Shown here piece after piece: positions 4,160 through 30,567 of a stretch of DNA of 64,000 nucleotides. The position numbers were made by a program, and so were the translations under genes. The notes below the pieces were generated by a model. The model was not told the origin of the DNA, made no database searches, and worked only from the letters and a program-made list of their open reading frames with translations. The DNA is from Actinoplanes sp. NBC_00393 (GTDB taxonomy: Bacteria > Actinomycetota > Actinomycetes > Mycobacteriales > Micromonosporaceae): NCBI RefSeq assembly GCF_036053395.1, contig NZ_CP107942.1:186001-250000 (forward strand), given 5' to 3'. Each line of letters begins with the position of its first letter. Positions within the stretch are counted from its first letter, which is position 1.

Positions 4160-4179
4160 GCCGTACCTCCCGAAGTCTG

Positions 4180-4211: not shown

Positions 4212-4217
4212 ACGCGA

Positions 4218-4391
4218 TCATCCGCAGCTGGTGCAGGCCGACTGGCAGGTTGACCCGCAGCCGTCGTTGGTCGCGTAGATGAGGTGCTTGACGGTGTCGC
4301 CGGCCTCGACGAACTCGATGTCGAGTTCGAAGTCCTCGGCCGCGACGGGCGCAGGCTGCGGGGCGGGGGGATCGGTGAGCTGGATGGTCAC
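4218..4391 (-). CDS. FxLD-family lanthipeptide precursor
   Basis: Small peptide of 57 residues. Residues 21-24 are the FELD leader motif that names the FxLD family, followed by IEFVEAG. The C-terminal half carries Thr33, Thr41, Ser47, Thr48, Ser51, Thr54 and Ser55 as dehydration candidates and Cys45, Cys49, Cys53 and Cys56 as ring thiols, ending CTSCG. An Asn-Asp-Gly (42-44) precedes the first Cys. The GTG start at 4391 was chosen because GGAGG lies 5 bases upstream; a longer frame reaching 4490 has no such site. Placed between its methyltransferase (upstream) and its dehydratase (downstream). The leader cleavage site is not evident. Confidence 0.88.
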   Translation of the reverse strand: MTIQLTDPPAPQPAPVAAEDFELDIEFVEAGDTVKHLIYATNDGCGSTCQSACTSCG

Positions 4392-4441
4392 AACAACCTC
4401 CTGCAAGAGAGATGTGGTTCCTCCGGGAATTCCGGAAGCCT

Positions 4442-5656
4442 TCAGGACCAGGTGACGGCGAGGGTGCCGTGCCGCTTGACTGTGTTCCACCCGGCCGGCC
4501 CGGTCGCGTCAGCGCCAGCCGGGTGATACGCGATGTGCGCCGAGCCGCGCAGGAAATGGTCGCGGGCCCAGTCGCGGATCAGCTCGAGGAGCCGGTTGGC
4601 GACCTGTTCGGCGTCCGGTCCGTGGGCGATCACGCCGGTCTCGTAGCCGCTGCTGGTCTGCGGGTTGGTGCGTTTGGTGCGGTAGGCGAAGCTGCCGCCT
4701 GCGATGAGCACCGGTACGCCGAGGCGCGCGCTGGGTTGGAACACGTCCTGGTCGATCATCGCTTGGCTGACGTGCAGCATTGGCATCTGAGGGCCGCCGT
4801 TGGTGAGCAGGAACAGTTGCAGCTCGTCGGGCATGTCGAAGGCGGTGCCGGACCAGCGTTCGATGCCCGGTTCGTGGATGGCCTTGCGCAGCGCCGGTAT
4901 GTCGAACCGGGCCTGCTGCTGCGGGTCGAGCCGCAAAGCGACGTCCGGGGTGATCGCGACGAGCTGTTCCTGCGTGGCGCCGTCACCCTGCATTGGCACG
5001 AACGCGCCGAGCCGGTAGCTGGCCGCGGTCAGCACCGAGCTGCCCGGAGCGCGGTCGAAGGCGATGATCCGGGTGATGCCGGCGAAGCGCAGCGGGACCA
5101 CGATCCTGCCGGTCTCGGTGAGCTGTTCGATCCAGGCGGGCGGGATGTCCCACGCGCCCACGGTGACGATGATCCGGTCGAACGGGGCGTGGTCGGGCAC
5201 GCCGTGTTCGGCGTCGGCGGTGACGACGCTGACCCGGCCGTAACCTGACTGCCTCAGGTAGGCAGCTGCCCGGGCGGTGATGTCGGCGTCGATGTCCACG
5301 GTCGTCACCCAGCCGGTCGGGCCGACCAACTCGGCGATCAGGGCCGCGTTGTAGCCGCCCGAGCCGATCTCCAGCACGTTCATGCCGGGTTCGATCTGTG
5401 TCTGTTCCAACATGGCGGCTTGGATCTCGGCGGCGGACACGACGCTGGTCTCCGTTCCGTCCGCGAGGGTTTTCGGCGCAAGGGTGACGTTCAGGTCGTA
5501 AGACCGCTCCAGCGGCTCGCCGGGTGCGAACTGGTGCCGGGGCACGGCGGCGAACGCCGCCGCCACCTCATCCGAGACGATCGCGTCCTGCTCGCGCAGC
5601 TTGACCACCATGGCCTCCCGCAACCAGCCGGCACGCTCCTCGGACTTGTTCTCCAT
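4442..5656 (-). CDS. PCMT-like methyltransferase of FxLD lanthipeptide system
   Basis: SAM-dependent O-methyltransferase of the protein-L-isoaspartate type, known as a companion of FxLD precursors. The 404-residue product has a motif I VLEIGSGGYNAALIAELVG, a VDIDADI acidic loop and the PFDRIIVTVGAWDIPPAW stretch typical of PCMTs, then a long C-terminal part shared by this subfamily. Start ATG 5656 has GGAAAGGAA upstream. The frame is open for another 96 codons upstream, covering a PWPC-type protein (next entry), so the natural product may be a fusion of about 500 residues. By analogy with other PCMT-type RiPP enzymes, the Asp-Gly of the precursor core is a plausible target (inference). Confidence 0.85.
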   Translation of the reverse strand: MENKSEERAGWLREAMVVKLREQDAIVSDEVAAAFAAVPRHQFAPGEPLERSYDLNVTLAPKTLADGTETSVVSAAEIQAAMLEQTQIEPGMNVLEIGSGGYNAALIAELVGPTGWVTTVDIDADITARAAAYLRQSGYGRVSVVTADAEHGVPDHAPFDRIIVTVGAWDIPPAWIEQLTETGRIVVPLRFAGITRIIAFDRAPGSSVLTAASYRLGAFVPMQGDGATQEQLVAITPDVALRLDPQQQARFDIPALRKAIHEPGIERWSGTAFDMPDELQLFLLTNGGPQMPMLHVSQAMIDQDVFQPSARLGVPVLIAGGSFAYRTKRTNPQTSSGYETGVIAHGPDAEQVANRLLELIRDWARDHFLRGSAHIAYHPAGADATGPAGWNTVKRHGTLAVTWS

Positions 5657-5944
5657 CTCGTTCCTTTCCGTCGCAGGCATGTGGTGATCAACGCTGGCCA
5701 GGGGAGCGCGGCGTGTCCAGGACACGAACCGCTGGTAGAGGTCGGCCGGCAACGGCTGACCGGCGGCGGCGAAGTCGTCGAGAGCGTCGTACATCTGCGC
5801 CGCTACCAAGACCCTCAGGATCGACGGGAAGGCGCGGAACTCGTGCGAGAGCGTGGCCTTGGCGTCAGCACACGGCCACGGCTTGCCGCAGACCGAGCAG
5901 TCCCAGCTCGGCCTGACCCTCGTGTGCTCCGCTCCACCGGTCAC
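5657..5944 (-). CDS. Small WxCxxCxxPWPC-motif protein, in frame with the methyltransferase
   Basis: About 96 codons from a GTG at 5944 encode a cysteine motif (WDCSVCGKPWPC) and then a helical stretch ending RFVSWTRRAP. This resembles short, often mis-named proteins found beside XRE/DUF397 genes in actinomycetes; no function is known to me. The GTG overlaps the TGA of the preceding tiny ORF (GTGA), which is strong evidence for a real start. No stop codon separates it from the methyltransferase at 5656, so translation from here gives one about 500-residue protein. Either a true fusion, or the original stop was lost and the methyltransferase keeps its own internal start. Confidence 0.6.
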
Positions 5945-6087
5945 TCCGGCGCCCGAAACAACGTGGCGGTGCTTCCGTGGGTCGGACACTCCAGTGAGAC
6001 GCCGCAGACAGTGCACCATCGATGCCTGGCAGTGGTGGTGACACAGCCTGCCAGGTAGCCCAGCAGCAACGCCGCGATCCCCGCCAT
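5941..6087 (-). CDS. 48-residue small membrane-anchored Cys protein
   Basis: ATG 6087 follows an AGGA-containing site about 7 bases upstream. The product starts MAGIAALLLGYLAGC, one short hydrophobic segment or lipoprotein-like start, then WCTVCGVSLECPTH, a small Cys cluster suited to metal binding. Its TGA stop overlaps the GTG of the PWPC protein by 3 bases, so it heads the coupled cluster. I know of no characterised homologue. Confidence 0.5.
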   Translation of the reverse strand: MAGIAALLLGYLAGCVTTTARHRWCTVCGVSLECPTHGSTATLFRAPE

Positions 6088-6177
6088 CACCGTTCCTCAC
6101 CTGGATTCCCCCGTGGCCGTCGGTCGCCGCTCGATCGCCTTGCCGTTGCCGGCGATCGCCCACGTCCGCGGATGCCG

Positions 6178-9354: not shown

Positions 9355-10277
9355 TGAGTGCCGTGGCCGGCAGATTCACCGAAACAGCGATGCGCCAGAC
9401 CCTCCTACGAATTGCGAGCCAACTGGGGGCGGACGCCAGCGAGGCAACTCTGCTGCGTCTGACCAACAACGCGGTCTTCGCGCTGCCCTCCGCCAATCTG
9501 GTCGTACGGATCACCCGCAGCCATCGGCTGCACGCTCGTGTCCACAAGGTGGCAGCGCTCGGTGTCTGGTTCGCCACCGTAGACGCGCCTACCATCCGGC
9601 TCGCCGAGCAGTTCTCCCAGCCGGTCCAGGACGGCCAACTCTTGGCCACGGTTTGGGAACTCGTCCCCGCAACAGAGCCAAAGCCGGATGCGTCGGACCT
9701 CGGCGCAGCCCTGCGCACGTTCCACCACTTGGGCCTACCTCCGTTTGAGCTGCCCGCGTGGGATCCCATCGGAGACGCACGTACCCGGATCGCCGATGCC
9801 GAAGCCCTCGACGGAGCCGATCGCGAATTCCTGCTCGAATGGTGTGACCGGCTGGAACCCCGTCTGGCCGCCTTCATCGCCAGCGCGGAGGTCGGCTTGG
9901 TCCACGCCGACGCCCACGAGGGCAATCTGCTGCGACAGCCGGACGGCCGAGTGGTGTTGTGTGACTTCGACGCGACTTGCCGTGGACCGTGGCAAGTCGA
10001 CCTCGTTCCCGCTCCCGCGAACGAGGCTCGCTTCGGTCGCACAGGCGGGCACCAAAACCTTGCCCGTGCCTATGGATACGACATCACCACCGACCCGGAT
10101 TGGCCGCTGCTCCGAGAAGCTCGGGAACTGAAGATGATCGCAGCCGGAGCCCCGCTGCTCGCCTCGGCTCCCGGCGTCCACGCCGAGTTCCGCCTGCGCC
10201 TCGACTCCGTGCGCAACAACGACGGGCAAACCAGATGGACGGCCTTTGGCGACCTGCCCCCGCTGACCGCTCAGTAA
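9354..10277 (+). CDS. Aminoglycoside-phosphotransferase-family kinase
   Basis: A 307-residue APH/choline-kinase-fold protein. The catalytic loop LVHADAHEGNLL supplies the HxDxxxxN motif and VVLCDFDATCRGP holds the Mg-binding DFD. The N-lobe has ALPSANLVVRITR in place of the usual ATP-binding Lys strand. The substrate cannot be read from sequence; homologues phosphorylate small metabolites as often as antibiotics. ATG 9354 overlaps the upstream TAA, so expression is coupled to the regulator. Confidence 0.8.
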   Translation: MSAVAGRFTETAMRQTLLRIASQLGADASEATLLRLTNNAVFALPSANLVVRITRSHRLHARVHKVAALGVWFATVDAPTIRLAEQFSQPVQDGQLLATVWELVPATEPKPDASDLGAALRTFHHLGLPPFELPAWDPIGDARTRIADAEALDGADREFLLEWCDRLEPRLAAFIASAEVGLVHADAHEGNLLRQPDGRVVLCDFDATCRGPWQVDLVPAPANEARFGRTGGHQNLARAYGYDITTDPDWPLLREARELKMIAAGAPLLASAPGVHAEFRLRLDSVRNNDGQTRWTAFGDLPPLTAQ

Positions 10278-10396
10278 CCGCAGCTCGCGGGGTCCCGTAC
10301 CCGCCGCGCGCGTCGGGGAGCCGGGTAGAGAAACGGCGAGTGACGTCCCCGGCCAGCACGGGCACGAAACCCACAGGCATCCAAAGCGCGGCTAGT

Positions 10397-10427
10397 GACA
10401 ACTTGTCTGGCGCCTATACTAGTCGCC
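10397..10427 (+). promoter_or_regulatory. Leaderless promoter and small operator
   Basis: TATACT at 10415-10420 is a good -10 box placed 7 bases before the ATG at 10428, so the transcript would start at or beside the start codon. No RBS is present, which fits leaderless translation. GACAA-C-TTGTC (10397-10407) is a perfect small palindrome where the -35 region should be, an obvious repressor site. The -35 itself is weak. Confidence 0.5.
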
Positions 10428-10616
10428 ATGGCGCAGACGAGCCTCCGCCTTGTCGGTGCTGCCGAGATCAGCGTGCTTCTCGGCGGTGTCAGCAGGCAGC
10501 GGGTCTACCAGTTGACTCGTCGTGCCGACTTTCCTGCGCCGGTTGCCGATCTCGCGCAGGGCAAGGTGTGGAACGCCGATGACGTGTTGGCGTGGATCGC
10601 CAGTCATCGGCGGTGA
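10428..10616 (+). CDS. AlpA/MerR-like small DNA-binding protein (excisionase type)
   Basis: 62 residues with the winged-helix pattern of AlpA/Xis proteins: VGAAEISVLLGGVSRQRVYQLTRRADFPAPVADL, then KVWNADDVLAWIA. The family includes excisionases and phage/element regulators. It is far from the integrase at 38552, so an excisionase role is only possible. No RBS; a leaderless start is supported by the -10 box 7 bases upstream. Confidence 0.7.
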   Translation: MAQTSLRLVGAAEISVLLGGVSRQRVYQLTRRADFPAPVADLAQGKVWNADDVLAWIASHRR

Positions 10617-10702
10617 AGGGCGACTGCGAGATGGAGTTCTTGCCCGGGATCCGGTGGAGAGTTGGATTCGTCTTCCGGTCAGCGGTTGGCATCAGGCAAG
10701 AC

Positions 10703-12475
10703 TCACGGTTGACCCGGCGTGTTCGTCGTGCGAGCGACGCGCCGACGGAAGCTCGCTAGCAGGCTGTTCGCGCCGTCGTGGTCACCGGTGCGTCGCAGCG
10801 CCTCGGCGGCCCGTAGCTGCAGATCTTCGTTGTCGGGCGCGATCGTGATGGCTGTCTGGAGCAGCCGGACAGCTCCGGGCGGCGGTTCATGCTCAACGAG
10901 GACGACGTAGGCGTCGATGACGTCGCGCCGGAGCGCTTCGCGGACGGGTGTGAGCCACGGCCAGTCCTGTCCGGCGGCGAACTCCCCGGTGTAGCGACGG
11001 ACGACAGCGTGGCAGGCCTGTATCCGGGCCGCGGTTTCGATGGCGCACCCGGCCGCGGCGACCGCGGTGCGCCACTGCCACAGGTCGGTGTCGATGGCCG
11101 CCGTGTTCAGTTGGTAGCGGGTGTCGTGCCGGTTCACCGGGTTGCTGCCGAGCTCGGGCTGGAGCTGTTTGCGCAGGTCGCTGATCGTGGTGTGTAGCCG
11201 TTGGGTGATGGACGCCGGCCGTACGCCGGGCCAGCAGGCGCGGATGAGTTCAGCAGGGCTGGCGCCGTCTGCGTGGACCGCGAGGTAGGCGAGGATCTGC
11301 AGGCCCGCGCTGCGGCGCAGCCGGGTGGGCTGTCCCTGGACGACGAGCTGGCAACCGCCGAGGAGTTCCAGGCGGCCGGGCGCATCGGGCTTTCCGGTTA
11401 CCACCGTGTGCGCCACGCCGGGTCGATGGTCCACGAGCTGGTTCGGGGCGGCCGCGTCGTCCCGGGTGTGCCGTACCAGATCGATCAGGTCGGTGGCGGT
11501 CTGTTGGTCGAGTACACAGACCCGGCGCGGTGCTGCGGCATCCGCACCGATGATCATTCCGTCGGTAGCGACGTGCCACCGGGCTGACGCAGCTACGGTG
11601 GCGTCGAAGGTGAGAACCGTGACGCTTCCAGCAGGGCTGCCTGGGAATGGTCGGACGGTCATGGCCTGTCGCAGGTCAGGATCGATGCCGGGTAGCAGCG
11701 CGTCGATGTCTGTGGCGTCTACGCGTACGTCGTGGGTTGGTGTGCTGTTGGTGGTGGTGAGCGCTGCGCTCACCAGCAGGCCGCGCGCGGCTGCGGCCGC
11801 GCCGGGCCCGGCGAGCGCAAGTACGCCGGAAGGTGGTGCGGCAAGCGGGACCGAAGCCTGCGGCGGTGGGCCGGAGACGGCGATGGCTTCCGCGGCTGGG
11901 GGGAGTCGTTGCAGGTCGGGGTCGCTGGTGTGGCCGTCTGCGCGCGGTGGCCCGGGACGATAGTGGCGCCGACGGTGGAACCAGATCAGCGAGCCAGCAG
12001 CGGTGACCGCCGCGGCGGTGGGGTAGGGGATCCACCCGCCGCCGGGCAACGTGATCCCGCCGTCAGCGGCGCGGGGTTCCGGGAGTTGCTGAGCGACCGC
12101 CGGCCGGGCGACGCCGGTGTCCGCGGACGCGGCGCCAGGCAGCGTGAACGCCGCGACCCCGGCCATCGAGCTGGCCGTCACCTGTGCCGGGGTGGGCAGC
12201 GGCATGCGGCGCAGCCGCCGCCAAACCGTCGCCGCCCACCGCACGGCGCGGCGCCCCAGATAGATGACCAGCACCAGCCAGGCCATCGTGGCGACGGCAC
12301 CACAGCAGGCGACGATCGTCCCGGCTGTCAGCGGCTGCTGCAACCAGCTGTCGACCTGCGTGCGGCTGGGCCACCGCCACGGGTGGTGGGCCAGCCACAG
12401 CGTGGCCAGCAGCGGCGGCACGGTGACGACGGCGAGCAGGATCGCCGCGGTGGCCAGCCGGTTCACCCACCGCAT
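10703..12475 (-). CDS. Membrane-anchored SARP/BTAD regulator without LysM
   Basis: 590 residues from ATG 12475. Two N-terminal membrane segments (ATAAILLAVVTVPPLLATLW; AGTIVACCGAVATMAWLVLVIYLG), an ITLPGGGW motif, a third segment ending in FHRRRHYR, and a cytoplasmic C-terminal half. The C-terminus begins LELLGGCQLVVQGQPTRLRRSAGLQILAYLAVHADG (winged helix) and continues ACWPGVRPASITQRLHTTISDLRKQL, then a BTAD TPR-like region. It is a paralogue of the protein at 14453. The frame is open upstream, but ATG 12475, two bases past the stop of the Hsp70-like gene, fits the hydrophobic N-terminus. Role: membrane-linked transcription factor (inference). Confidence 0.78.
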   Translation of the reverse strand: MRWVNRLATAAILLAVVTVPPLLATLWLAHHPWRWPSRTQVDSWLQQPLTAGTIVACCGAVATMAWLVLVIYLGRRAVRWAATVWRRLRRMPLPTPAQVTASSMAGVAAFTLPGAASADTGVARPAVAQQLPEPRAADGGITLPGGGWIPYPTAAAVTAAGSLIWFHRRRHYRPGPPRADGHTSDPDLQRLPPAAEAIAVSGPPPQASVPLAAPPSGVLALAGPGAAAAARGLLVSAALTTTNSTPTHDVRVDATDIDALLPGIDPDLRQAMTVRPFPGSPAGSVTVLTFDATVAASARWHVATDGMIIGADAAAPRRVCVLDQQTATDLIDLVRHTRDDAAAPNQLVDHRPGVAHTVVTGKPDAPGRLELLGGCQLVVQGQPTRLRRSAGLQILAYLAVHADGASPAELIRACWPGVRPASITQRLHTTISDLRKQLQPELGSNPVNRHDTRYQLNTAAIDTDLWQWRTAVAAAGCAIETAARIQACHAVVRRYTGEFAAGQDWPWLTPVREALRRDVIDAYVVLVEHEPPPGAVRLLQTAITIAPDNEDLQLRAAEALRRTGDHDGANSLLASFRRRVARTTNTPGQP

Positions 12476-12477
12476 GA

Positions 12478-14310
12478 TCAGCCAGACGGTGCGGTGGGTG
12501 TGGTGCGGGCCAGCGTCCAGGTGCGCTGGGCGAACCAGGCGGCGACCGCGAGGGCGTAGATGACGGCGAGGATGTTCGGCCCGGACCGCGAGATGATCAC
12601 GGTGAAGAAGCCGAGCAGCACAGCCAGCACGATCCGGGCGGCGGGGTGGCGGACCAGGGCGCAGGTGATGCCAATGCCCATGAGCAGGCCCCCGGTGTAG
12701 CCGACGAGTTCGTTCCAGTCGTTGGCCCACCACGGCAGGCCGGCGTGCCACCACAGGGCGACCGCGACGGTGCCGACCGCGGCGGTGATCATCGAGCTGG
12801 GGGAGAAGGTGAGGAACGCGTCCCAGCCGCCGGCCGGGGCGGGCCGGCGTTTCCAGGTGAGCGCGGCGAGCAGCAGCACGCAGGCGAGCAGCGGCAGGAT
12901 CGGCATCAGCGACCAGCGCAGCAACTGGCCGGTCGGGTAGGCGAAGTAGACGGCCGCGGTGATCGCGTACAGGCACGCGACCGCGGCGCCGGCGCCGGCC
13001 GCCAGGGCGATGCCGCTGGTGATGCGCGATTCGGGGTATGCACGGGCCGGCGCTTTGTTCTGCTGGTCGAGGATCGCCGCGAACAGCGACGCGGCCTGCA
13101 GGAACGTGATCGCCGCGAGTACGGCTGCGACGGTGAGTTCACCCCAGACCGCGAGGACGTAGTAGCCCTCGCCGCGCCAGGTGGGGGTGCCGTTGTTGAA
13201 GTCGGCGGTGAACACGAAATGCCCGAACAGGGCGAGCGACGCCAGCCCGGGCAGCGCGAGGGCGACGATGCGGCGCAGCGGCGGGACCCGTAGTGCCGCA
13301 TCCGGGCTCCCAAGCGTGGCAGCGACGTCGCCGGCTCCGCTGTCGGCGGCGCCCAGCGCGGCCGTCAGCTCCGGGCGGGACAGCACCTGCGGCGTGGTGC
13401 CGAGCTTTGCAGCGACCGTGTCGACAGCTCCCGGTGTCGTCGCGGCCGCGCCGATCAGGTAGACGGCGTCGAGCTGGTCCGGTTTGAGGTCGGCGGCGGT
13501 GACAGCCTCGGCGGCCAGTTGCCCGGCCCGTTCCAGCACCGGCTGAGCGGCTTGCCGCACGACGCTGGAGTTGACCACGATCGGCGGGTTGCCGCCGGGC
13601 ACCGGCATCGTCACCGCCGGCTGCTCAGCGAGGGCCTGCTTGGCGGTGCGGACCGCGGCGAGCAGCGGCCACCGCTGATCCGCCGCGAGAGTGTCCAGTT
13701 CGGCGCCGGTCAGGGTCATGGTCAGGGCAGCGTCGATGCGGTCACCGCCGCAGTCCGGGTCGGCCAGCGTGGAGAGCACCTCGCCTTCGGCGAGCACGGT
13801 TGCTTCGCAACCAGCACCGAGATCAACCACCAGCACGGTACGGGCGTCGCGGCTGATCTGTGCGGTGGCCGCGATCGGTGCTTCGACCAGGCGGGACACG
13901 GTGAGTCCGGCGCGGCGGGCGGCGTTGCGCAGCCAGGTACGCCGCCGTGGCCCCCACCCGGCCGGGACTACCAGGCGGACGTCCTCGAGGCGTTCCCCGG
14001 CGACCCGGTTGGCCTCCTCGCCGACCTGTCGCAGGGTGGCGGCGACCAGGTCGGCCACCGGAACCTCGGTCCCGGCGACGGTCAGGTTCTCGGTGCCGGC
14101 CCGCAACGGCGACAGCACGAAGCCGTCCGGATCGGAGGTGGCCTGCTGCCACGCCGCCGGCCCGACCGCGATCCCGGCCTTGCTGACGTGCACCGCGCTG
14201 GACAGCTCGGGGGAGCCGCCGAAGTCAAGCACCGTCGAGGATCCGCCTGGCCAGACGAGGACCGCCCGGGTGGAGGCGGCACCGTAATCGATCGCCAGCC
14301 ACGGAAGCAT
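12478..14310 (-). CDS. Hsp70/actin-fold ATPase with polytopic membrane domain
   Basis: 610 residues. The N-terminal ~330 residues show the DnaK/actin ATPase signature: WLAIDYGAASTRAVLVW (phosphate 1), TVLVVDLGAGCEATVL (phosphate 2) and VYLIGAAATTPGAVDTVA (adenosine). No canonical substrate-binding domain follows; instead the C-terminal part contains about seven or eight hydrophobic segments (IVALALPGLASLALFGHFVF to NILAVIYALAVAAWFA). No good RBS precedes ATG 14310. It is transcribed with the SARP protein at 10703 and diverges from the LysM-SARP gene. A membrane Hsp70-like ATPase that senses or remodels a partner is a reasonable guess, not shown. Confidence 0.75.
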   Translation of the reverse strand: MLPWLAIDYGAASTRAVLVWPGGSSTVLDFGGSPELSSAVHVSKAGIAVGPAAWQQATSDPDGFVLSPLRAGTENLTVAGTEVPVADLVAATLRQVGEEANRVAGERLEDVRLVVPAGWGPRRRTWLRNAARRAGLTVSRLVEAPIAATAQISRDARTVLVVDLGAGCEATVLAEGEVLSTLADPDCGGDRIDAALTMTLTGAELDTLAADQRWPLLAAVRTAKQALAEQPAVTMPVPGGNPPIVVNSSVVRQAAQPVLERAGQLAAEAVTAADLKPDQLDAVYLIGAAATTPGAVDTVAAKLGTTPQVLSRPELTAALGAADSGAGDVAATLGSPDAALRVPPLRRIVALALPGLASLALFGHFVFTADFNNGTPTWRGEGYYVLAVWGELTVAAVLAAITFLQAASLFAAILDQQNKAPARAYPESRITSGIALAAGAGAAVACLYAITAAVYFAYPTGQLLRWSLMPILPLLACVLLLAALTWKRRPAPAGGWDAFLTFSPSSMITAAVGTVAVALWWHAGLPWWANDWNELVGYTGGLLMGIGITCALVRHPAARIVLAVLLGFFTVIISRSGPNILAVIYALAVAAWFAQRTWTLARTTPTAPSG

Positions 14311-14350
14311 GACGATGAGTGAAACAGATGACCGCCGATCCGTCAGCCCC

Positions 14351-14390
14351 GTGTGTGAGCAGTTGTGAGGTGTTGTGAGCCCGTGTGAGG
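14351..14390. promoter_or_regulatory. Four TGTGAG direct repeats on 10-bp pitch
   Basis: TGTGAG occurs exactly at 14354, 14364, 14374 and 14384, each followed by C or G alternately, in the 142-base gap between the divergent Hsp70-like and LysM-SARP genes. Equal spacing of one helical turn is what SARP-family activators use for direct-repeat operators (their known spacing is usually 11 bp). Likely the binding site for one or both flanking SARP proteins. Confidence 0.6.
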
Positions 14391-14452
14391 CCCCAGCGAC
14401 CTGGTCACCGGCATAGCGTCAGCCCACTGAGAGCCGCGGGGAGGGGTACGCC

Positions 14453-16957
14453 GTGATTCGGATGGTCGCAGCAATTCGGGTGGTCGTGGTCGCCTGCGCA
14501 TTGCTGTTCGGTGTCCCGGCGCTGCTTTTCGCAGTCGCCGGGAGTCCGCTGCCGGCGCAGACGCCGTCCGCCGAGCAGTGGCAGTTGTGGGCCAATGACC
14601 CGCTGCATCCCCGGTACGCGGGCGCGACTGCCCGTACCGTGATGTGGCTTGTCTGGGCTTTGCTGGCTGTCCTGGTGGCGGCGGCCGTGGCCGCCCGCGT
14701 GCGCCGTCTGCCGTGGAGTCGGGCCGCCGGCTACCTGCCCGGCCCGCTGCAGGGGCTGGCTGCGACGCTCATCGGCGCCGCCACCGTCACGACCGCCACC
14801 ACCACGGCCGACGCCCACGAAGCGGTTCCGGTGACGGCGAGCGTCCCGGACTACCAGCCGGTCGCCCGCACCCTCGAACCCGCGCAAACGGAGCACCGTG
14901 CGACCGTCACGGTGCGCCGCGGCGACACCCTCAGCGGCATCGCGCAGCGAAAGCTGCGCGACGCCGAACGCTGGCCAGAGATCTTCGCCCTCAACCGCAA
15001 CAAACACTTCCCCGACGTCGGTGGACGTCTGCACGACCCGGACGTCATCTACCCGGGCTGGCGGCTGCAACTGCCGGCCGACGCCGCCCCGAAACCACGC
15101 ACACCCGCCCGCCCGAAGCCCGCTACACCGGCACCCACCAAACCTTCCGAGCCCGCCGCCACAGCCGCGCCCGCCGCCACCGAGCAGGCCAACGAGGACA
15201 GGGCGACGGCAGACGAGGGCGTGACGCTGCCCGGCGGATGGATCAGCCTTCCCCTCGCCGCGGCACTCGTCGCCGCCGCAGTCATGGTGTGGCTGCAACG
15301 CCGCCGGCGTTACGTCCCGCCCGCCGTCATCGACTCCGACATCGACGATTCCCACCTGCGCCCGCTGCCCGCGGTCCTGACGACGATCAAACGGCAGGTC
15401 CGGCGCCGCGACCCCGCCCTGCTTGATCCGCCGGCACCGCAACCCACGGTCGCGCAGCACAACGCCGCCGCACCCGCCGACCAACCCACCACCGGCCTGG
15501 ACGGGCTGCAACTCGCGGGACTCGACGGTCGCATGCCGGCGGACGGCTGGGGGTTGACCGGCCCCGGCGCGCACGCCGCCGCCCGCGGCCTGCTCGTCGC
15601 CACGCTGTCGTCGGGCAGTCCCGCTGACCCTGACGCCAAAGGCCAGGTCATCGTGGCTGCGGACACCCTTGAGGTGCTGCTCGGTGCCGCCGGGCAACGC
15701 TACGCCGACATGCCGCGACTGCACCCCACCGCGGACCTGGGGGAGGCGCTCACCCGCGCCGAGGAACTGATCGTCGAACGACGCCGCATCCTGCAGGAAC
15801 ACGACGCCGCCGACCTGGCGGAACTGCGCGCCACCGAACCTTTCCACCCACCGATGCCGCAGGTGCTGCTGCTGGCCACGGCGCCACCAACAGATCTACG
15901 GGGCCGACTGGCGACCACGGTACGGCTCGGAGCATCCCTGCAGATCGCGGTCGTGGTGCTCGGCGACTGGACCGACGGCGACACGCTGACCGTCGCCGAC
16001 GACGGAACAACCGGCACCGAACGGATCGCCGTGCTCGACACTCCCACGGCTCTGCAACTGCTGGACGTGCTGCATGAAGCGCACACCGGAACGCCGGTCA
16101 CTGCGGCCGTGAGCGCAACGGACGGCCCACCGTCATCATCACCCGCCCAGCCCGTCGTTCAACCGGCGGCTGCTGGTGAGCCGCCAAACGATTCGCCACC
16201 GCACACCGTGCGCGTCCGGCTGCTCGGCGAGCCGGCGATCCTCGACAGCGACGGCAAACCGATGACCGGCCTACGCCACCACGCCCGCGGGCTGCTCGTC
16301 TACCTGGCCGTCCACCGCGACGGCGCCCGCCTGCCCGACCTCATGGAAGCGTTCTGGCCAGCCGCCACCGTGCGCCGCGCCTCTGAACGGCTCTCCACCG
16401 AAGTCGCCAACCTGCGCCGCACCATCCGCCAGGCCGCGGGCGACAAGAGCATTCAACCCGTGATCAACACCGGTGGTCACTATCACCTCGACCCGAAACT
16501 GCTCGACATCGACATCTGGCAGGTCGCCGACGCCCTGCGCCAAGCCGCGACCGCCGAACCCGGCGCACGGCTGGCGCTGCTCAGCCGCGCAGTCGACGCC
16601 CACAGCGGGGTCCTCGCCGCCGGGTGCGACTACGAATGGATCGAACAACCCCGCGAACACTTCCGCCGCCTCGGCGTGCGCGCCCGTCTCGAGGCGGCCG
16701 AACTCATCGAACGGGACGACCCCAAGGCGGCTGCCGACCTACTCGGTGACGCGGCAGCAATCGACCCGATCAACGAAGAACTCGCCCGCCGGGCGATACG
16801 CGCAATCGTCGCGGTCGGCGACCACGCCGGCGCGCGATCCGTCATGGAGCACCTGCATGCGGCCCTGCACCACATCAATGAAGAACCGTCCGAGCAGACC
16901 ACCACACTCGCCGCTGAGTTGATCGCCTCCAGGGACAGGCACAGCGAGGGGTTCTGA
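14453..16957 (+). CDS. LysM-membrane-SARP/BTAD transcription factor
   Basis: 834 residues from GTG 14453, with GGGAGGGG upstream. Order: membrane segments near 8-30 and 62-82, a third possible one at 95-115, LysM at about 151-208 (VRRGDTLSGIAQRKLRDAER to YPGWRLQLP), a Pro/Ala linker, VTLPGGW and a membrane segment at 262-281 followed by LQRRRRY, a long cytoplasmic region, then winged helix from about 585 (RLLGEPAILDSDGKPMTGL; FWPAATVRRASERLSTEV) and BTAD to the end. LysM binds peptidoglycan or chitin in known proteins, so an outside-wall sensor wired to an inside DNA-binding domain is likely (inference), comparable in layout to ToxR/CadC. Confidence 0.82.
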   Translation: MIRMVAAIRVVVVACALLFGVPALLFAVAGSPLPAQTPSAEQWQLWANDPLHPRYAGATARTVMWLVWALLAVLVAAAVAARVRRLPWSRAAGYLPGPLQGLAATLIGAATVTTATTTADAHEAVPVTASVPDYQPVARTLEPAQTEHRATVTVRRGDTLSGIAQRKLRDAERWPEIFALNRNKHFPDVGGRLHDPDVIYPGWRLQLPADAAPKPRTPARPKPATPAPTKPSEPAATAAPAATEQANEDRATADEGVTLPGGWISLPLAAALVAAAVMVWLQRRRRYVPPAVIDSDIDDSHLRPLPAVLTTIKRQVRRRDPALLDPPAPQPTVAQHNAAAPADQPTTGLDGLQLAGLDGRMPADGWGLTGPGAHAAARGLLVATLSSGSPADPDAKGQVIVAADTLEVLLGAAGQRYADMPRLHPTADLGEALTRAEELIVERRRILQEHDAADLAELRATEPFHPPMPQVLLLATAPPTDLRGRLATTVRLGASLQIAVVVLGDWTDGDTLTVADDGTTGTERIAVLDTPTALQLLDVLHEAHTGTPVTAAVSATDGPPSSSPAQPVVQPAAAGEPPNDSPPHTVRVRLLGEPAILDSDGKPMTGLRHHARGLLVYLAVHRDGARLPDLMEAFWPAATVRRASERLSTEVANLRRTIRQAAGDKSIQPVINTGGHYHLDPKLLDIDIWQVADALRQAATAEPGARLALLSRAVDAHSGVLAAGCDYEWIEQPREHFRRLGVRARLEAAELIERDDPKAAADLLGDAAAIDPINEELARRAIRAIVAVGDHAGARSVMEHLHAALHHINEEPSEQTTTLAAELIASRDRHSEGF

Positions 16958-17071
16958 CCGCTGCCCAACAGCTGCTCTTCCATGCGACGTCGTTGCTCCG
17001 CGCCGGCCAGGTGACAGACCGGCGACGCGGGCGGGGCAACCGGTACCCTGGCCACAGGCAGGAGGTCACAC

Positions 17072-18247
17072 GTGGACACCACCGCTTTCCGTGACGAGCT
17101 GATCCGGCTTCGCCAACATCGCGGTCTGTCGTATCGACAACTTTCTGCGCTTTCCGCCGTCAGCCACAGCTTGATCAACGACCTGGAAAAGGGTGACCGC
17201 CGGCCCACATTCAAGGTCGTCGCCGCGCTTGACACCGCACTGAACGCCCGTGGCCGCCTCACCGCCACACTGCGCACCTCCACGCCCGATGATGTCGAAG
17301 GCGAGTTCGAAGCGTTGGAACTCGCGCAACGGGCTGCCGCCTCCGATGTCAGCGGTGAGACCCTGGAAGCTCTCGAACACGACGCCAACCTGATGGCCAT
17401 GGCGTATGCGACCACCCCACCGGCCGAACTTCTGCCTCGCGTACGCCGGTACCTGCGGTTCGTCGACCAACTGCTCGACGGTCGCAAGACGCTGAAGCAA
17501 CACCGGCGCCTGCTGGTCGTGGGTGGCTGGCTGTCGCTCCTGCGGGCCACTCTGCACATCGATCTGGGTCAGCGCGGGCCGGCCGCAGCCCACATGAAAG
17601 TCGCTGCCGGACTGGCTGATCAGACGGATCAACCGGAGATCACCGCATGGGCCCTCGAGACACGGGCGTGGGACGAGCTGATCCGGGGCAACTATCGGCA
17701 GGCGGTCGAACTCTCCCGGCACGCTCAAGCGGTCGGGCCGCCGGACGGGTCGGCAATCGTGCAAGCGACCGCACAGGAAGGGCGAGCCTGGGCGCGGCTC
17801 GGTGACCCGGTGGCCTCCCGGAAGGCGCTGCGCCGGGTGGAGGCCATGGCCGAGAGCCGCACGCCACCTCAGCATCCGGAACATCACTATCAGTACGACC
17901 CGGCAAAGGCGCACTCGTACGCGGCGACCACCCTGGCATGGTCCGGCGACCCGGCCGCCGAACAGGTGGCCAGAGACGTGATCGCAGAATTGGAGGCGGA
18001 CGGCGCCCGGCCACGGCGGATCGCGTCCGCCCGCCTCGACCTCGGTCTGGCCTTGCTCACCGGCACCAAGCCACGCGCTGATGAAGCCGCTGCGCAGGCG
18101 CGCGCGGCCATCCGGTCCGGCCGGATAGTGCCGTCGAACTGGTGGCGCGTCGACGAGTTGGTCACCAGCGTCGCCCGGGCCGGTTCACCGGAAGCCTCCG
18201 ACCTACGGGAAGAGGCTGCTACTGCGCGTCCAACCGGCGACCCCTGA
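17072..18247 (+). CDS. XRE-family regulator with TPR-like C-terminus
   Basis: 391 residues. The N-terminal helix-turn-helix is clear (LIRLRQHRGLSYRQLSALSAVSHSLINDLEKGDRRPT, residues ~9-45); the rest is helical and repeat-like, as in many actinobacterial regulators with tetratricopeptide sensors. GTG 17072 has AGGAGG 6 bases upstream. It lies 114 bases after the LysM-SARP gene on the same strand; co-transcription is possible. Two palindromes lie immediately downstream. Confidence 0.8.
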   Translation: MDTTAFRDELIRLRQHRGLSYRQLSALSAVSHSLINDLEKGDRRPTFKVVAALDTALNARGRLTATLRTSTPDDVEGEFEALELAQRAAASDVSGETLEALEHDANLMAMAYATTPPAELLPRVRRYLRFVDQLLDGRKTLKQHRRLLVVGGWLSLLRATLHIDLGQRGPAAAHMKVAAGLADQTDQPEITAWALETRAWDELIRGNYRQAVELSRHAQAVGPPDGSAIVQATAQEGRAWARLGDPVASRKALRRVEAMAESRTPPQHPEHHYQYDPAKAHSYAATTLAWSGDPAAEQVARDVIAELEADGARPRRIASARLDLGLALLTGTKPRADEAAAQARAAIRSGRIVPSNWWRVDELVTSVARAGSPEASDLREEAATARPTGDP

Positions 18248-18259
18248 CCCGCCGGCCTC

Positions 18260-18300
18260 TGTCCGCAGAATTGCGGACACAGTCGCATTGTCCGCGGACA
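18260..18300. promoter_or_regulatory. Pair of TGTCCGC palindromes
   Basis: TGTCCGCA-gaat-TGCGGACA (18260-18279) is a perfect 8-bp inverted repeat and TGTCCGCGGACA (18289-18300) a perfect 12-bp palindrome of the same half-site; centres are 25 bp apart. They sit just after the XRE gene stop. Most likely a repressor operator; the regulated gene is unclear because the next plus-strand frame is doubtful. Confidence 0.5.
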
Positions 18301-18528
18301 CGAATTTCCAGGCAGCGGGCGGGGTTGGGCGCAGAATCGGCAGGTGACGGCGACCGGGATAGCTTCCTCAGACGTTGCCAGCCCGGTCGCCGTCCCATCT
18401 CGAACGGGACTGAACGTGGCCGTCCAGCTGCCCGGCCTGGATTCGAAGACCTCCGGTTCGACCAGGCACGTCCGGACCGGAATCGTCAATCTGACGGCGC
18501 CTATCGCGAAGGGCCGACCCCGTGATGA
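18301..18528. other. Intergenic stretch without convincing gene
   Basis: A 67-codon plus-strand frame from GTG 18344 runs to 18547 and overlaps the end of the convergent hydrolase gene. It lacks an RBS and recognisable features, but the palindromes upstream make a small gene conceivable. I see nothing else. Confidence 0.3.
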
Positions 18529-19539
18529 TCAACTAGCGAAGCGGTAGGGCGTCATCGGATAGGTGCCGAAGTACGGGTACGGGATCAGATGGTGCAGGGT
18601 TCCCGAGCCGCCGGTCTGCTCGAAGCCGTAATAGCTGGTCATCGACTGGTCTGACCAGCGTTCGAACAGTACGACGTGGCCGCGCAGATTCGGTGCGGTG
18701 TTGATCAGCAGGTCGCCGGGCCGTAGCTGCATCTTGTCGATGACCGTCGAGTGTGCCGCCAGGCCGGAGGTGTTCAGTCCCGGCCCGGCGAGGCCCAACG
18801 CCATGGATACGTAGCCCGAGCAGTCGCGCCGGTAGCCGCGGAACCAGTCGGCGGGGTTGCCGCTCGACAGGTAGGGCACCGGCCCGCCTGACCAGCCAGT
18901 CAGCCATGATCGCGCCCGGTCGAAGACGGCGGTGACGTCAGCGCATCGGCCGGAACCATCCCCTGCGGACGGGCAGATGTCGACGCACGGCGGGGGAGTG
19001 GCGAAGCCGCCGCCGGCCACCGCGCGAACGATGCGGGTGGCGTCGGGTTCCCATTTGGCGTATGCCTCGGGATAGGCGCTGCGTTGCACCTGCTGGGCGG
19101 CGGCGGTGAGCGGCATGGTGTGCCATCCGTTGATGGTCAGCAGCTTGGCGTAGAACTTGGTGGCGGCGTATTGCGGGTCGAGCAGCTGTTGCGGGTTGCC
19201 CCAGCCTTGGCTGGGGCGCTGCTGGAACAGCCCGATGGAGTCGCGGTCGCCGCCGGCCAGGTTACGCAGGCCGGATTCCTGCAAGGCGGTGGCGACCGCG
19301 ATGACCTGACCGCGAAAGGGGACACCCAGCTGGCTGCCGACCGCGACGATCGTCGCGGCATACTCGAGTTGTTCCGGCTCGTAGCCGGCGAGCTGGGCTG
19401 AGCCGGCGGATGCCGGGGCGCTGACCGGGTTGCAGGGCACGGCCGTGCCGCCGCCCAGGAGCGACGCTGGCCCGGCGGCGCAGAACAGCACGATACCCAA
19501 GACCACGGCGACGATTCCCGCAAGGAGTTTGCCGATCAT
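18529..19539 (-). CDS. Two-domain peptidoglycan hydrolase of the transfer apparatus
   Basis: 336 residues. After one membrane segment (LLAGIVAVVLGIVLFCAAG, residues ~4-22) comes a lytic-transglycosylase-like domain (VIAVATALQESGLRNL with the catalytic-type Glu; DSIGLFQQRPSQGWG) and then an NlpC/P60 domain with catalytic Cys in YRRDCSGYVSMALGL and His in RGHVVLFERW. This matches the CwlT/VirB1-like enzymes that open the wall for Gram-positive conjugation. ATG 19539 overlaps the stop of a 9-codon ORF (ATGA), which carries the real RBS. It is the last gene of the transfer operon. Confidence 0.85.
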   Translation of the reverse strand: MIGKLLAGIVAVVLGIVLFCAAGPASLLGGGTAVPCNPVSAPASAGSAQLAGYEPEQLEYAATIVAVGSQLGVPFRGQVIAVATALQESGLRNLAGGDRDSIGLFQQRPSQGWGNPQQLLDPQYAATKFYAKLLTINGWHTMPLTAAAQQVQRSAYPEAYAKWEPDATRIVRAVAGGGFATPPPCVDICPSAGDGSGRCADVTAVFDRARSWLTGWSGGPVPYLSSGNPADWFRGYRRDCSGYVSMALGLAGPGLNTSGLAAHSTVIDKMQLRPGDLLINTAPNLRGHVVLFERWSDQSMTSYYGFEQTGGSGTLHHLIPYPYFGTYPMTPYRFAS

Positions 19540-19565
19540 GCCGGCTCGTTCAGGTACGGCAGCAT
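19536..19565 (-). CDS. 9-codon leader ORF before the hydrolase
   Basis: GGAGG, four bases, then ATG 19565 encodes MLPYLNEPA and stops at a TGA that overlaps the hydrolase ATG by ATGA. The hydrolase itself has no RBS of its own, so ribosomes probably reach it by termination-reinitiation. The peptide is too short for a known function; it looks like a coupling leader. Confidence 0.5.
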   Translation of the reverse strand: MLPYLNEPA

Positions 19566-19657
19566 GAAACCTCCAGAAACACGAAAAGGGCGCTGTGCGC
19601 GCCCGGACATGGGGATTGAGTGCGGGGGTGCCGGCGGCTGCCGGCACCCACCGACGA

Positions 19658-20635
19658 TCAAGATGGAGTGGAGTGGTCTGCGGGGTTGTTGTTGTGGCTG
19701 TCCGGCCGGGCGCCGTTGACGGTCAGTCCGGCGAGCCGGTAGGCGGGTGGGACCGGTGAGTCGAGGAAGCCGAGCTGGCCGGCGCGGCGTACCCATTCGA
19801 TTTGTCGTTTGCTGAAATGGTGCCGGGCGGCGACGGCGGCCAGGTCGGGGTGCTCCTGGCTGGTGAGGTCGGCCCACGCGGTGCGCCAACGCTGGTAGGC
19901 GTCGGCATTGGCGGGGATCCGGCGCATCAAGTCGACCGGCACATACACCGGTGGCCTGTCTTCCGGAACCGGAAGCTGCTCGGCGGCGTGGAGTTCGCGT
20001 AGGGCCGCGGCGACGCGCAGGGAGCCGTCCGGGCACAGCTGGTGGTAGGTGGTGATGGCGGTGTCGACGGTGTCGATGCCGAGGAGCAGCGCGGTGCGGT
20101 AGGCGCCGTAGGTGTCGCGGGGTGCGCCGAGGCCGGGTGTCCAGCGGCGCCAGCCGAAGGCGGGTATCTGCCGGTTGCGGCGGCCGCTCTGGCGTTGGAT
20201 CCAGCGACGGAATCTGCCGAGGACGGCTTCCAACAGGGCAGGGCCGGCGATGGACATGAGCGGGAAGAACCAGATGGCGTCCGGCGCGGCGCCGGGCTGG
20301 CTGCTGTGCCGGAAGTTAGCGAACGCCGATCCCAGCGCGAAGCCCCAGACGAGGACACCGAAGATGCCGGCCGGGTCGCCGCGCCACGCCGAGTAGACGC
20401 TGAGCAGTACACAGGCCCCGGCGGCGGAGTCGAGGCTGATCGCCACCAGCAACGGCCACGGGTGCGACAGGTTCAGGCCAGTGCCGGCTGCAGCCCAGGC
20501 GATGAGGTCCTGGCTGGAGAGCACGATCGGGGTCAGGATGACGATGCCCAGCAACAGGGTGACGGCACCGAGCAGGATGCCAATCATCACTGTGGCCGTG
20601 CGCGAACGTTCCGATCGGAGGGCGGAGGCCGTCAT
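19658..20635 (-). CDS. DUF2637-like membrane protein
   Basis: 325 residues from ATG 20635, which overlaps the stop of the ArdC-like gene (ATGA). The N-terminal half has four hydrophobic segments (MIGILLGAVTLLLGIVILTPIV; LIAWAAAGTGLNLSHPWPLLVAISLDSAAGACVLLSVYSA; GIFGVLVWGFALGSAFANFRH; LMSIAGPALLEAVL), and the C-terminal half is soluble with an HTH-like HPDLAAVAARHHFSKRQIEWVRRAGQLG. DUF2637 proteins are frequent in actinobacterial mobile elements, often with spread or transfer genes; function not known. Confidence 0.65.
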   Translation of the reverse strand: MTASALRSERSRTATVMIGILLGAVTLLLGIVILTPIVLSSQDLIAWAAAGTGLNLSHPWPLLVAISLDSAAGACVLLSVYSAWRGDPAGIFGVLVWGFALGSAFANFRHSSQPGAAPDAIWFFPLMSIAGPALLEAVLGRFRRWIQRQSGRRNRQIPAFGWRRWTPGLGAPRDTYGAYRTALLLGIDTVDTAITTYHQLCPDGSLRVAAALRELHAAEQLPVPEDRPPVYVPVDLMRRIPANADAYQRWRTAWADLTSQEHPDLAAVAARHHFSKRQIEWVRRAGQLGFLDSPVPPAYRLAGLTVNGARPDSHNNNPADHSTPS

Positions 20636-21591
20636 AGCGCCGCCTCCAGCTCTGCAGCCGCGGGGTCCAAGTCGGTGAGGATCTGCCGGGCGACGCGCAG
20701 CACGATGTCGGCGCAGTCGCGGATCAGGTCGAGGTCGCCGTCGGCCCAGCCGAGCACGTACGCGTCGCTGTAGTCCTTGGTGTCCAGGTCGAGGGCGGCG
20801 CAGACGATGTGCGCGACGCTTTCCGCCTCGGTCTCGCACCGTCCACGATGTAGGTTCTCGCCGGCCGGCACCTGCTCGACGTGGCCGCAGCGCAGGTGGG
20901 CGAGCTCGTGCGCGGTGGTCTTGACGCGTTGGGCGTCGCTGAGGTCGTCGCGAATCAACACCTGCCGTAAACCGGGCACCGTGACGCCGTTCGCCGCGCC
21001 GAGGTGGCGACTTCCCGGCGCGACGAGCTGGAAGGTGTAGCCGTCGGCGCGGATCAGTGCGACCAGGTCGTCGTAAGCGCCGGTCGGGTCGTCACCGGTC
21101 AACAGCTGCGGCAGCACGCGACCTTGGCGGTGTCGCAGCACGGTGGGCGGGTCGAACGGGTCACCGTCGGTCTGGCCGAGTTCGAACGTGCTGGCCAGCC
21201 GGAACCCGACAATCTGCGGCACGGGCCGGCCGCTGGCGTCACGGCGTACGGTGCGGCCGTCGGCCTCCCACTGCTCGGCTTGCGCGTCGGTGGGGCGCCG
21301 CCGCACCGGGGCCCAGATCTTGTAGGCGGTTTCGCCGCGCCGGACTCGCCGGCCGTGCGCCTTCCAGCCGGTGGTGGCGTCGGCGTTGCCGAACGGCAGA
21401 AAGAAGCACGGGACGATGCCGCGCTGCTCGGCCTGGGAGAGCAGCAGGAGCTGGTTGCCGAGACTGTAGTGGGCGCCGAACACGGCGACCTGGTCGAGGA
21501 ACTCGGCCCACTGCAGGGGGCTTTCGGCGAGTAGGGCGAGCCGGTCGTCGAAGTCCTGTTTGATCTGTTCGAGATCGATGGTGCTGGCCAT
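20632..21591 (-). CDS. ArdC-like antirestriction protein with HExxH metal site
   Basis: 319 residues. The N-terminal part matches ArdC-type ssDNA-binding regions (SPLQWAEFLDQVAVFGAHYSLGNQLLLLSQ; GWKAHGRRVRRGETAYKIWAPV), and the C-terminal part carries TTAHELAHLRCGH with a downstream ETEAESVAHIVCAALDL, a metallopeptidase-like HExxH...E arrangement. Such proteins protect transferred single-stranded DNA from host restriction in known plasmids. AGGAG lies 10 bases before ATG 21591. Part of the conjugation operon, coupled to the DUF2637 gene. Confidence 0.78.
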   Translation of the reverse strand: MASTIDLEQIKQDFDDRLALLAESPLQWAEFLDQVAVFGAHYSLGNQLLLLSQAEQRGIVPCFFLPFGNADATTGWKAHGRRVRRGETAYKIWAPVRRRPTDAQAEQWEADGRTVRRDASGRPVPQIVGFRLASTFELGQTDGDPFDPPTVLRHRQGRVLPQLLTGDDPTGAYDDLVALIRADGYTFQLVAPGSRHLGAANGVTVPGLRQVLIRDDLSDAQRVKTTAHELAHLRCGHVEQVPAGENLHRGRCETEAESVAHIVCAALDLDTKDYSDAYVLGWADGDLDLIRDCADIVLRVARQILTDLDPAAAELEAAL

Positions 21592-21706
21592 GCGTGGCCA
21601 TCTCCTTTCCTGTACGCCTGGCGGCGGGCAGGAAGGGACCGCACCCGGCGACCCCGACCTGCCCGCTTGCGCGAGGTGAGGCCGCCCGCAAGGGGGCGGT
21701 GTTCGG

Positions 21707-22225
21707 TTATCGGGCCGGGATCGGCCGGATGGTCAGCGGCGGGTGCCGCAGCCAGGACGCGGCGAGCACCTGGTCGCGGACGGGATGCGTGACGACGTCG
21801 TAGTCGCGCAGCCAGACCGCGCACCAGGCGTCGGCGGGCGCGTCTGCGCGCAGCTCGCTGCCGGTGTCGGCAGCGATCCCGGCGACACCGGAGCGGGTCT
21901 GCCGGCGGTAGTGCTCGAGGCGGCCGGACAGCATCGGGCAGGCCCGGATGCTGTAGGCGGCGCACGGCGGGCACAGTGCCGGCTCCGACGTGCAGTGCAG
22001 CAGCAGGTCGGCGGGCCGGGCGAACACGATGAGCCGCTCACCGAGGGGTTGCCCGCAGATCTGGCACAGTCGCCGGGTCAACAGGTGCCGCTGCCGGAAG
22101 TTCTCCAGCAGGCCGAACAGCGGCTGCCCGTCGGCGGTGCGTGGTGTGGCTACCGGTACGACCAGGCCGGCACTGGTCGGCCGCCGCCGCAGGTGGACCG
22201 GGATGTCCGGTCGTTGGTTGCTCAT
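21707..22225 (-). CDS. Cys-rich zinc-binding protein of unknown function
   Basis: 172 residues from ATG 22225, which overlaps the stop of the upstream gene (ATGA). Contains CQICGQPLGERLIVFARPADL...CTSEPALCPPCAAYSIRACPML, a treble-clef-like set of cysteines. The reading of the metal site is from the motif; no family name is known to me. Common neighbour of transfer genes in actinobacterial elements. Confidence 0.6.
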   Translation of the reverse strand: MSNQRPDIPVHLRRRPTSAGLVVPVATPRTADGQPLFGLLENFRQRHLLTRRLCQICGQPLGERLIVFARPADLLLHCTSEPALCPPCAAYSIRACPMLSGRLEHYRRQTRSGVAGIAADTGSELRADAPADAWCAVWLRDYDVVTHPVRDQVLAASWLRHPPLTIRPIPAR

Positions 22226-22743
22226 CGCAGACCCCACACGCTCGGGTCGACGGCCGCGAGAGGGTCGGTGTGCGGGAACGGCCCGAACAGTTCGGCGATC
22301 AGAGCCCGGGTCGCGGGTGCATGGCTGCGGCTGCCCGGTAGGCGGGCGCCGATGCGCCACTGTCGATCCCAGCTGCCGTCACTGCTGAGCAGGAACACCT
22401 CCGGCATGAGGAGCCGGGCGCGCAGCAGGACAGCGGCGACGGCGGCGTCGTACGGTTTGCGGCTGGTCTTGCAAAAGTTCGCCTCCCAGACGGTGGTGTT
22501 GCTGTCCGGCGGGGCCGGCAGAACGAAGGTGTCGTTGTCGAGGTCGCTGGTGGCGTCGCCGTTGAAGGCGATGTCGCAGGCCGGGTCGAGCACCGGCCGT
22601 CCGAGGCCGCGGGGTCCGGCGATGACGATGCCGTGGCGGCGGACCGCGTCGATGATGCGCACGGTGTCACCGACCAGCTGCGGCCAGGCGGTGCGGTACT
22701 CGGGGTGCGTGACCGGCACGCTCCAGTAGTGGGTGTAAGCCAT
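22222..22743 (-). CDS. Unknown protein of transfer module (173 aa)
   Basis: Start ATG 22743 with GGGAG 8 bases upstream. The sequence opens MAYTHYWSVPVTHPEYRTAWPQLVGDTVRIIDAVRRHGIVIAGPRG and contains DIAFNGDA and NFCKTSRKPYDAAVAAVLLRA. These motifs recur in uncharacterised proteins; no catalytic site is assignable. Coupled to the zinc protein downstream. Confidence 0.6.
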   Translation of the reverse strand: MAYTHYWSVPVTHPEYRTAWPQLVGDTVRIIDAVRRHGIVIAGPRGLGRPVLDPACDIAFNGDATSDLDNDTFVLPAPPDSNTTVWEANFCKTSRKPYDAAVAAVLLRARLLMPEVFLLSSDGSWDRQWRIGARLPGSRSHAPATRALIAELFGPFPHTDPLAAVDPSVWGLR

Positions 22744-22833
22744 CGGATTTGCTCCCGTGAATAGGGGAGCACCGGGCGCGGCTGCGCCCGGTGCTCCAAG
22801 TGGGTGGCCGGGCATGGGCCGGGTGGAAGAGAA

Positions 22834-30554: not shown

Positions 30555-30567
30555 CGGCGGGTTCCTG

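Follow-up and report, generated by a model that had tools for sequence, protein, structure and literature searches.

Published SARPs, the family of regulators to which AfsR and EmbR belong, recognise direct repeats that lie one or two helical turns apart (11 or 22 bp), with the 3' repeat positioned 8 bp from the -10 element (PMC10936776, in the part of that text available). Regulators of the ToxR/CadC type, according to the excerpt consulted, join an outside sensor and an inside DNA-binding part in one chain, an arrangement that recurs at the locus described here. This locus is a three-gene module in a 64,000-nt stretch of Actinoplanes sp. NBC_00393 (NZ_CP107942.1, 186,001-250,000), a stretch that is called the window below and whose positions count from its first letter. 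The module consists of a SARP with a LysM domain (LysM-SARP), a membrane protein built on an Hsp70 domain, and a second SARP. What is new is an array in its divergent promoter, in which four TGTGAG units recur every 10 bp exactly and are followed by a TANNNT box. The architecture, recurrence, linkage to conjugation genes and conserved array of the module are computed results. As a whole, we think it probable, if by no means certain, that the trio is a transmembrane transcription-control module of VirB4-type integrative conjugative elements (ICEs) in the Micromonosporaceae, with its own operator and an Hsp70 switch, and that it controls transfer. The trio is undescribed in the titles and abstract openings of the literature searched, a search whose reach included few subscription papers.

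The LysM-SARP gene (14453-16957, + strand) encodes a protein in which Pfam recognises LysM (E 7.9e-5) and BTAD (E 1e-6). Its predicted structure has four membrane helices, a LysM domain at about residues 146-211, an FtsK/EccC-like domain at about 240-543, and at about 582-826 an OmpR-like winged helix-turn-helix (wHTH) followed by BTAD, the succession that defines a SARP and that both profiles and fold search confirm. A simple hydropathy scan recovered three of the four modelled helices, plus a segment at 486-504 that is likely to be false. Positive residues are found past the second and past the last span; together with the model they indicate a transmembrane one-component regulator with LysM outside and the FtsK-like domain and SARP part inside, a topology that is by prediction only. 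An earlier sequence-only reading of this DNA had proposed two membrane-anchored SARPs, one of them with LysM outside and the SARP part inside in a single chain. Prediction bears this out: membrane segments were obtained by model or hydropathy and wHTH plus BTAD in both proteins, and the SARP part was not placed outside the membrane. The proposed sensing of a wall-derived ligand is not supported, as LysM indicates wall binding at most.

The middle domain of LysM-SARP has an FtsK/TcpA/EccC-like fold in the fold search, but is no FtsK/HerA motor ATPase by its motifs, as Walker A (GxxxxGK[ST]) is present in 1 of 111 whole sequences. This fold, together with relatives that end Tad pilus operons and the close linkage to VirB4, would suit a protein that is mainly structural within a conjugation or pilus machine, a wall anchor and FtsK/EccC-like scaffold whose wHTH-BTAD part is itself scaffold or vestige. 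We consider such a role quite improbable, as the wHTH-BTAD part gave the strongest fold match of the protein, with DNA-bound AfsR among the targets, and as the array is conserved at the promoter of the LysM-SARP gene itself.

The Hsp70-membrane protein is encoded divergently (12478-14310, - strand) and combines an Hsp70-type nucleotide-binding domain (about residues 1-325) with eight predicted membrane helices (345-601; mean pLDDT of the model 93); a hydropathy scan returned six segments. The domain was identified by Pfam (HSP70, E 1.4e-15, residues 80-322), by PDB sequence search, the matches of which span about 6-339 only, and by Foldseek, which matched the whole protein to DnaK (E 1.1e-19) with Hsp70 domains among the 50 matches listed. 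A substrate-binding domain and lid are lacking, the C-terminal half being predicted membrane helices. The sequence-only reading had called this protein an ATPase with many membrane segments; the Hsp70 domain and the helices hold up, but ATPase activity is doubtful because the positions aligned with K70, E171 and T199 of DnaK, which we take to be the numbering of its catalytic residues, are altered in most of 19 relatives. The first is L, R or M in all 19, within a gapped stretch, the second is A in 17, but 18 have an E at the preceding place, which makes an alignment shift possible, and the third is C or A in 18. A search for copies on plasmids gave 18 records, but no single match among them extends over 80 percent of the query, and the annotated ones are named DnaK, HscC or Hsp70.

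The second SARP (10703-12475, - strand) has no LysM. It carries N-terminal membrane segments (two in the hydropathy scan), a remnant of the FtsK-like domain, and wHTH plus BTAD, as judged from profiles, sequence reading and the pairing with the Hsp70 gene in relatives. Pfam reported BTAD alone and below threshold (0.0045); profiles made from LysM-SARP relatives matched both wHTH (6.6e-23) and BTAD (5.4e-23), and this protein is therefore also a SARP. The three genes and their layout are as originally read, except that the open reading frame (ORF) listed as 10703-12976 is over-extended, with its start 500 bp early; some gene lists, for the window and for fetched loci, were made by a simple GC-position rule. 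Read by eye, the Hsp70 stop codon occupies 12480-12478 and the ATG of the SARP frame follows two bases further, at 12475-12473, so that the two minus-strand genes probably form one transcript, as had been supposed.

The two transcription units diverge from one shared control region of about 142 bp (14311-14452), again in agreement with the sequence-only reading. Array scans place the putative operator at 14354-14389 (+ strand; CTCACA on the other strand), and the array rule gives no second array in the window. In 1.89 Mb of related loci plus the window, arrays of at least three units with up to one mismatch per unit number 35 at a period of 10 and none at 7, 8, 9, 11, 12, 13 or 14, a control run on the same loci from which the motif had been derived; the information content of the motif comes from 22 hand-picked arrays and is partly circular. 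All 35 arrays sit directly upstream of LysM-SARP genes, one of which is solo (L112). Counted from the last unit, base 35 is T in 22 of 28 array promoters (L145 and L149 among them), base 36 is A in 22 and base 40 is T in 23, forming the TANNNT box. The corresponding window sequence, TAGCGT at 14414-14419 (+ strand), is the putative -10 box of the LysM-SARP gene; its position was read by eye and is one step nearer the array than in relatives. A tag taken from upstream of the relatives' arrays has a single occurrence in the window, elsewhere (45183).

Relatives of the Hsp70-membrane protein number 243 among 5.8 billion proteins, and the organism-named ones among the best 120 listed belong to genera that we take to be Micromonosporaceae. 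A genome scan yielded 47 loci with the gene, presumably of the same family, judging from record titles. Of 246 genomes of the class, in each of which 5 candidates were scored, two from the Micromonosporaceae, our own included, have full-length matches at E 1e-45, and two from another family match the Hsp70 domain alone. With 5 candidates per genome here and 8 in another survey, copies are undercounted, and fetching around SARP matches gave five more. Within the data searched, the three-gene module is found in Micromonosporaceae only. A domain rule detects a SARP gene in 76 of 87 fetched loci that hold the Hsp70-membrane gene, which supports co-occurrence; duplicates are included here, and double fetching of some loci (among them L011/L058, L015/L057, L026/L061 and L038/L060) inflates array, upstream-stretch and co-occurrence counts. 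The 11 others comprise two short stretches (L001, L004), five whose sequence breaks off no more than about 1.3 kb from the gene (L039, L041, L043, L047, L048) and four without a full SARP gene (L020, L083, L085, L088).

Three layouts occur: LysM-SARP divergent from Hsp70-SARP, as in the window; Hsp70, SARP and LysM-SARP in tandem; and Hsp70 alone with LysM-SARP divergent from it. The genes are not scattered without their partners, which would have counted against a module, yet among 20 further loci fetched around SARP matches LysM-SARP occurs without Hsp70 in 14; five have the Hsp70 gene and one (L102) has a SARP without LysM. In 33 deduplicated loci with one gene of each kind, Mantel correlation of distances is 0.92 between Hsp70 and the second SARP, and 0.47 between LysM-SARP and either of them, values reached by 0 of 2000 permutations. 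Thus Hsp70 and the second SARP diverge in parallel and LysM-SARP follows loosely; the Hsp70-like membrane partner of the sequence-only reading is not supported as a direct partner. The genome that contains the window also holds a second, diverged LysM-SARP/Hsp70-membrane pair (L090, G000:C1:66473-82254), adjoined by a large serine recombinase and a tyrosine integrase, and a third LysM-SARP, without Hsp70, near 8.26 Mb (L109).

The module is carried by VirB4-type conjugative elements. In 26 module-bearing genomes, VirB4 lies within 80 kb of 24 of 36 Hsp70-membrane sites (1.2 expected) and so does Replic_Relax (24 of 36; 1.9 expected), the expectations assuming uniform placement. The 36 sites were hand-picked, including the partial copies G112:C2 and G112:C4 and the stop-bearing G137:3354753 and omitting a tandem neighbour (G112:C1:1735542). 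Of the 12 other sites, eight lie on contigs that lack VirB4 (including one in G044, where the whole genome lacks it), two are in genomes without VirB4 (G084, G098) and two are far from it (G141, G137); when only genomes with one or two contigs are counted, VirB4 is close to 11 of 15 sites. Conversely, a SARP-family match was found within 80 kb of 34 of 44 VirB4 copies (47 rows, with three G122:C50 pieces merged and the fragment G021:C109 left out), the ten others being on contigs without a listed SARP match, and 39 of 53 SARP loci, merged from pieces in these 26 VirB4-searched genomes, are near VirB4. Serine recombinases adjoin the four two-gene loci tested (L080, L084, L087, L090), and L087 also has a VirB4-like gene.

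The module might instead be cargo, for example a device for envelope sensing on behalf of the host, with no part in transfer control. In favour of this, the array occurs in the window at the module's own promoter only, and an Hsp70-membrane site is missing within 80 kb of 20 of the 44 VirB4 copies, an upper figure because 8 candidates were scored per genome and the five additional copies turned up later. Against cargo, in the genomes with no more than two contigs all 16 VirB4 copies have a SARP-family match within 80 kb, and we regard this explanation as unlikely.

For a module in transfer control, we infer the following course. LysM-SARP would be anchored in the membrane, with LysM projecting into the wall space and the AfsR/EmbR-like DNA-binding part on the cytoplasmic side, and would bind the 10-bp TGTGAG array, probably side by side on one face of the DNA. 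The bound array would adjoin the promoters of both the LysM-SARP gene and the Hsp70-SARP operon, and the result would be an autoregulated switch, with LysM-SARP as activator. The Hsp70-membrane protein would pair with the second SARP and set the activity of that SARP or of LysM-SARP, acting probably not as a working chaperone but as a nucleotide-binding switch, and the output would probably be control of element transfer, perhaps through further targets and in response to a wall signal. We are much less inclined towards a more elaborate mating switch, in which LysM-SARPs would cluster at wall sites, align on the four-unit array, activate the locus and hold the element DNA at the membrane, while a nucleotide-gated Hsp70-membrane protein licenses the second SARP, the whole responding to contact or to the wall.

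Several observations weigh against LysM-SARP binding its array and controlling transfer. The period is 10 rather than 11 or 22, and 24-34 bp rather than 8 separate the array from the -10-like box, so that the array departs from the published sites; with its 10-bp step and other promoter geometry, it would be a variant of them. Of 72 LysM-SARP upstream stretches, 34 have the array and 38 do not (duplicates included; L014, L062, L034 and L045 have weaker arrays outside the 34), and it is missing from all 12 two-gene loci and, among 14 solo LysM-SARPs, present at L112 alone. A two-unit pattern with up to two mismatches is found 3 times in the window compared to 3.57 in shuffles, all three matches being exact and within 14354-14389, and no transfer gene of the window is preceded by an array under the array rule. 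The four one- or two-contig Hsp70 sites not near VirB4 include two far from it, one of them stop-bearing, and two in genomes without a VirB4 match.

Arrays also occur beyond the module. Among 354 genomes from the family, 80 contain the pattern TGTNAGN4TGTNAGN4TGTNAG, compared to 2 for the reversed control. Of 20 hand-chosen regions away from known LysM-SARPs, 15 have arrays that adjoin integrase-excisionase, type IV secretion system (T4SS: pilin, TrbL, VirB4) or Replic_Relax genes; of the other five, two represent the module, two are of TGTCAG form beside unannotated genes and one is ambiguous. In one contig (G149:C53), arrays precede an integrase operon (6085), a T4SS operon (13112) and the module (56319-56354). 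Most transfer-gene arrays bear an extra conserved element that was not found in the window, where, with up to 3 mismatches, it is no commoner than chance. A SARP match was obtained in 34 of 40 array-bearing and 16 of 40 array-free genomes, which leaves six array-bearing genomes without one, and in four of these the 77-98 kb around the array site are free of SARP domains. The similar three-unit arrays with their additional element and the SARP-free sites would fit binding by another protein, such as a replication or regulatory protein of the element, the NsdA-like XRE neighbour or a host factor, with the SARPs acting elsewhere. Such a binder seems improbable to us, given that each of the 35 period-10 arrays lies directly upstream of a LysM-SARP gene, a solo one among them, and that SARPs bind such repeats (PMC10936776, as far as the accessible text goes); we retain LysM-SARP as the candidate ligand of the array.

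In six loci (L151, L157, L158, L160, L162, L163), TGTGAG arrays with a conserved GGCGTTCGCC...GCACACAAAC element precede integrase, Replic_Relax or an unnamed 300-aa gene, and the stretches around four of these elements are without SARP; they are perhaps satellites that use the regulator of a helper. A 343-aa protein of the window (35256-36287) has no Pfam or NCBIfam match, and its relatives adjoin many such arrays.

Further genes of the window presumably belong to the same element. Domain scans identified NlpC/P60-SLT, DUF2637, M78/ArdC-like, DUF4192, amidoligase-like, Replic_Relax, TraD/VirD4-like and VirB4-like proteins (18529-32328, - strand) and a tyrosine integrase (38552-39607, + strand) that is probably the element's. 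The element ends were not located; the 20 direct-repeat families listed, out of 22, include no convincing attachment-repeat pair. A lantibiotic dehydratase and a PCMT-type methyltransferase (1205-6163) enclose a 90-aa ORF (4218-4490) and resemble what we take to be an FxLD-type lanthipeptide cluster. A transposase with a Mu-type C-terminal domain and its partner ORF (45193-47282) are presumably an IS21-like pair, and 15-bp tandem repeats occupy 58736-58959. The module is adjoined by an XRE protein of the NsdA family, a TPR-like regulator (17072-18247); NsdA-like XRE proteins are mentioned on actinomycete ICEs of Frankia (PMC3218068, in the part available). Other origins were considered: the three proteins have no PADLOC match to a defence system, LysM-SARP has no match among phage records, and 10000-20000 has no Rfam match at gathering scores.

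For the VirB4-type conjugative elements of an antibiotic-producing actinomycete family, the module offers a candidate regulator together with a defined candidate operator, which makes binding, regulation and transfer directly testable. It also presents the SARP fold in a membrane-tethered form and a membrane protein fashioned from an Hsp70 domain.

Among described systems, LysM-BTAD-type proteins of two plasmids (Kitasatospora and Xylanimonas) are the last genes of Tad pilus operons and share with LysM-SARP the N-terminal membrane segments, LysM and SARP wHTH in the same order. They differ in having two or three LysM units and no match to the FtsK-like or BTAD profiles made here, and they are adjoined by Tad genes, with no Hsp70-membrane partner annotated in the plasmid stretches read; the window genes that were domain-scanned include no Tad match, so that LysM-SARP does not end a Tad operon. 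LysM and BTAD are also listed for PAGK_2369 in the P. acnes tad locus (PMC3666418, seen in part). Both domains are 'shell' domains near extracellular contractile injection systems, which likewise have secretion-type neighbours, but the portion of that report available does not state a one-protein arrangement (PMC8213781), and no such system is present among the domain-scanned genes of the window. Actinobacterial ICEs, as covered by the available part of PMC3218068, share the integrase, VirB4-like and coupling proteins; LysM, SARP and Hsp70 are not mentioned in the text of that paper. With Hsp70/DnaK, the Hsp70-membrane protein shares sequence and fold of the nucleotide-binding domain, but membrane helices replace the substrate-binding domain and the catalytic positions are altered. 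Compared to ToxR/CadC, whose DNA-binding part we take to be N-terminal, LysM-SARP has a C-terminal SARP fold, a LysM domain and an extra FtsK-like domain; the text of PMC10269533 mentions neither BTAD, SARP nor LysM. AfsR and EmbR have in common with the module the wHTH-BTAD fold and sites made of direct repeats with a spacing near one helical turn; the proteins described here differ by an N-terminal membrane anchor, with LysM outside in one of the two SARPs and no NOD or FHA part seen, and by an array of four units with a 10-bp period at a larger distance from the -10 box.
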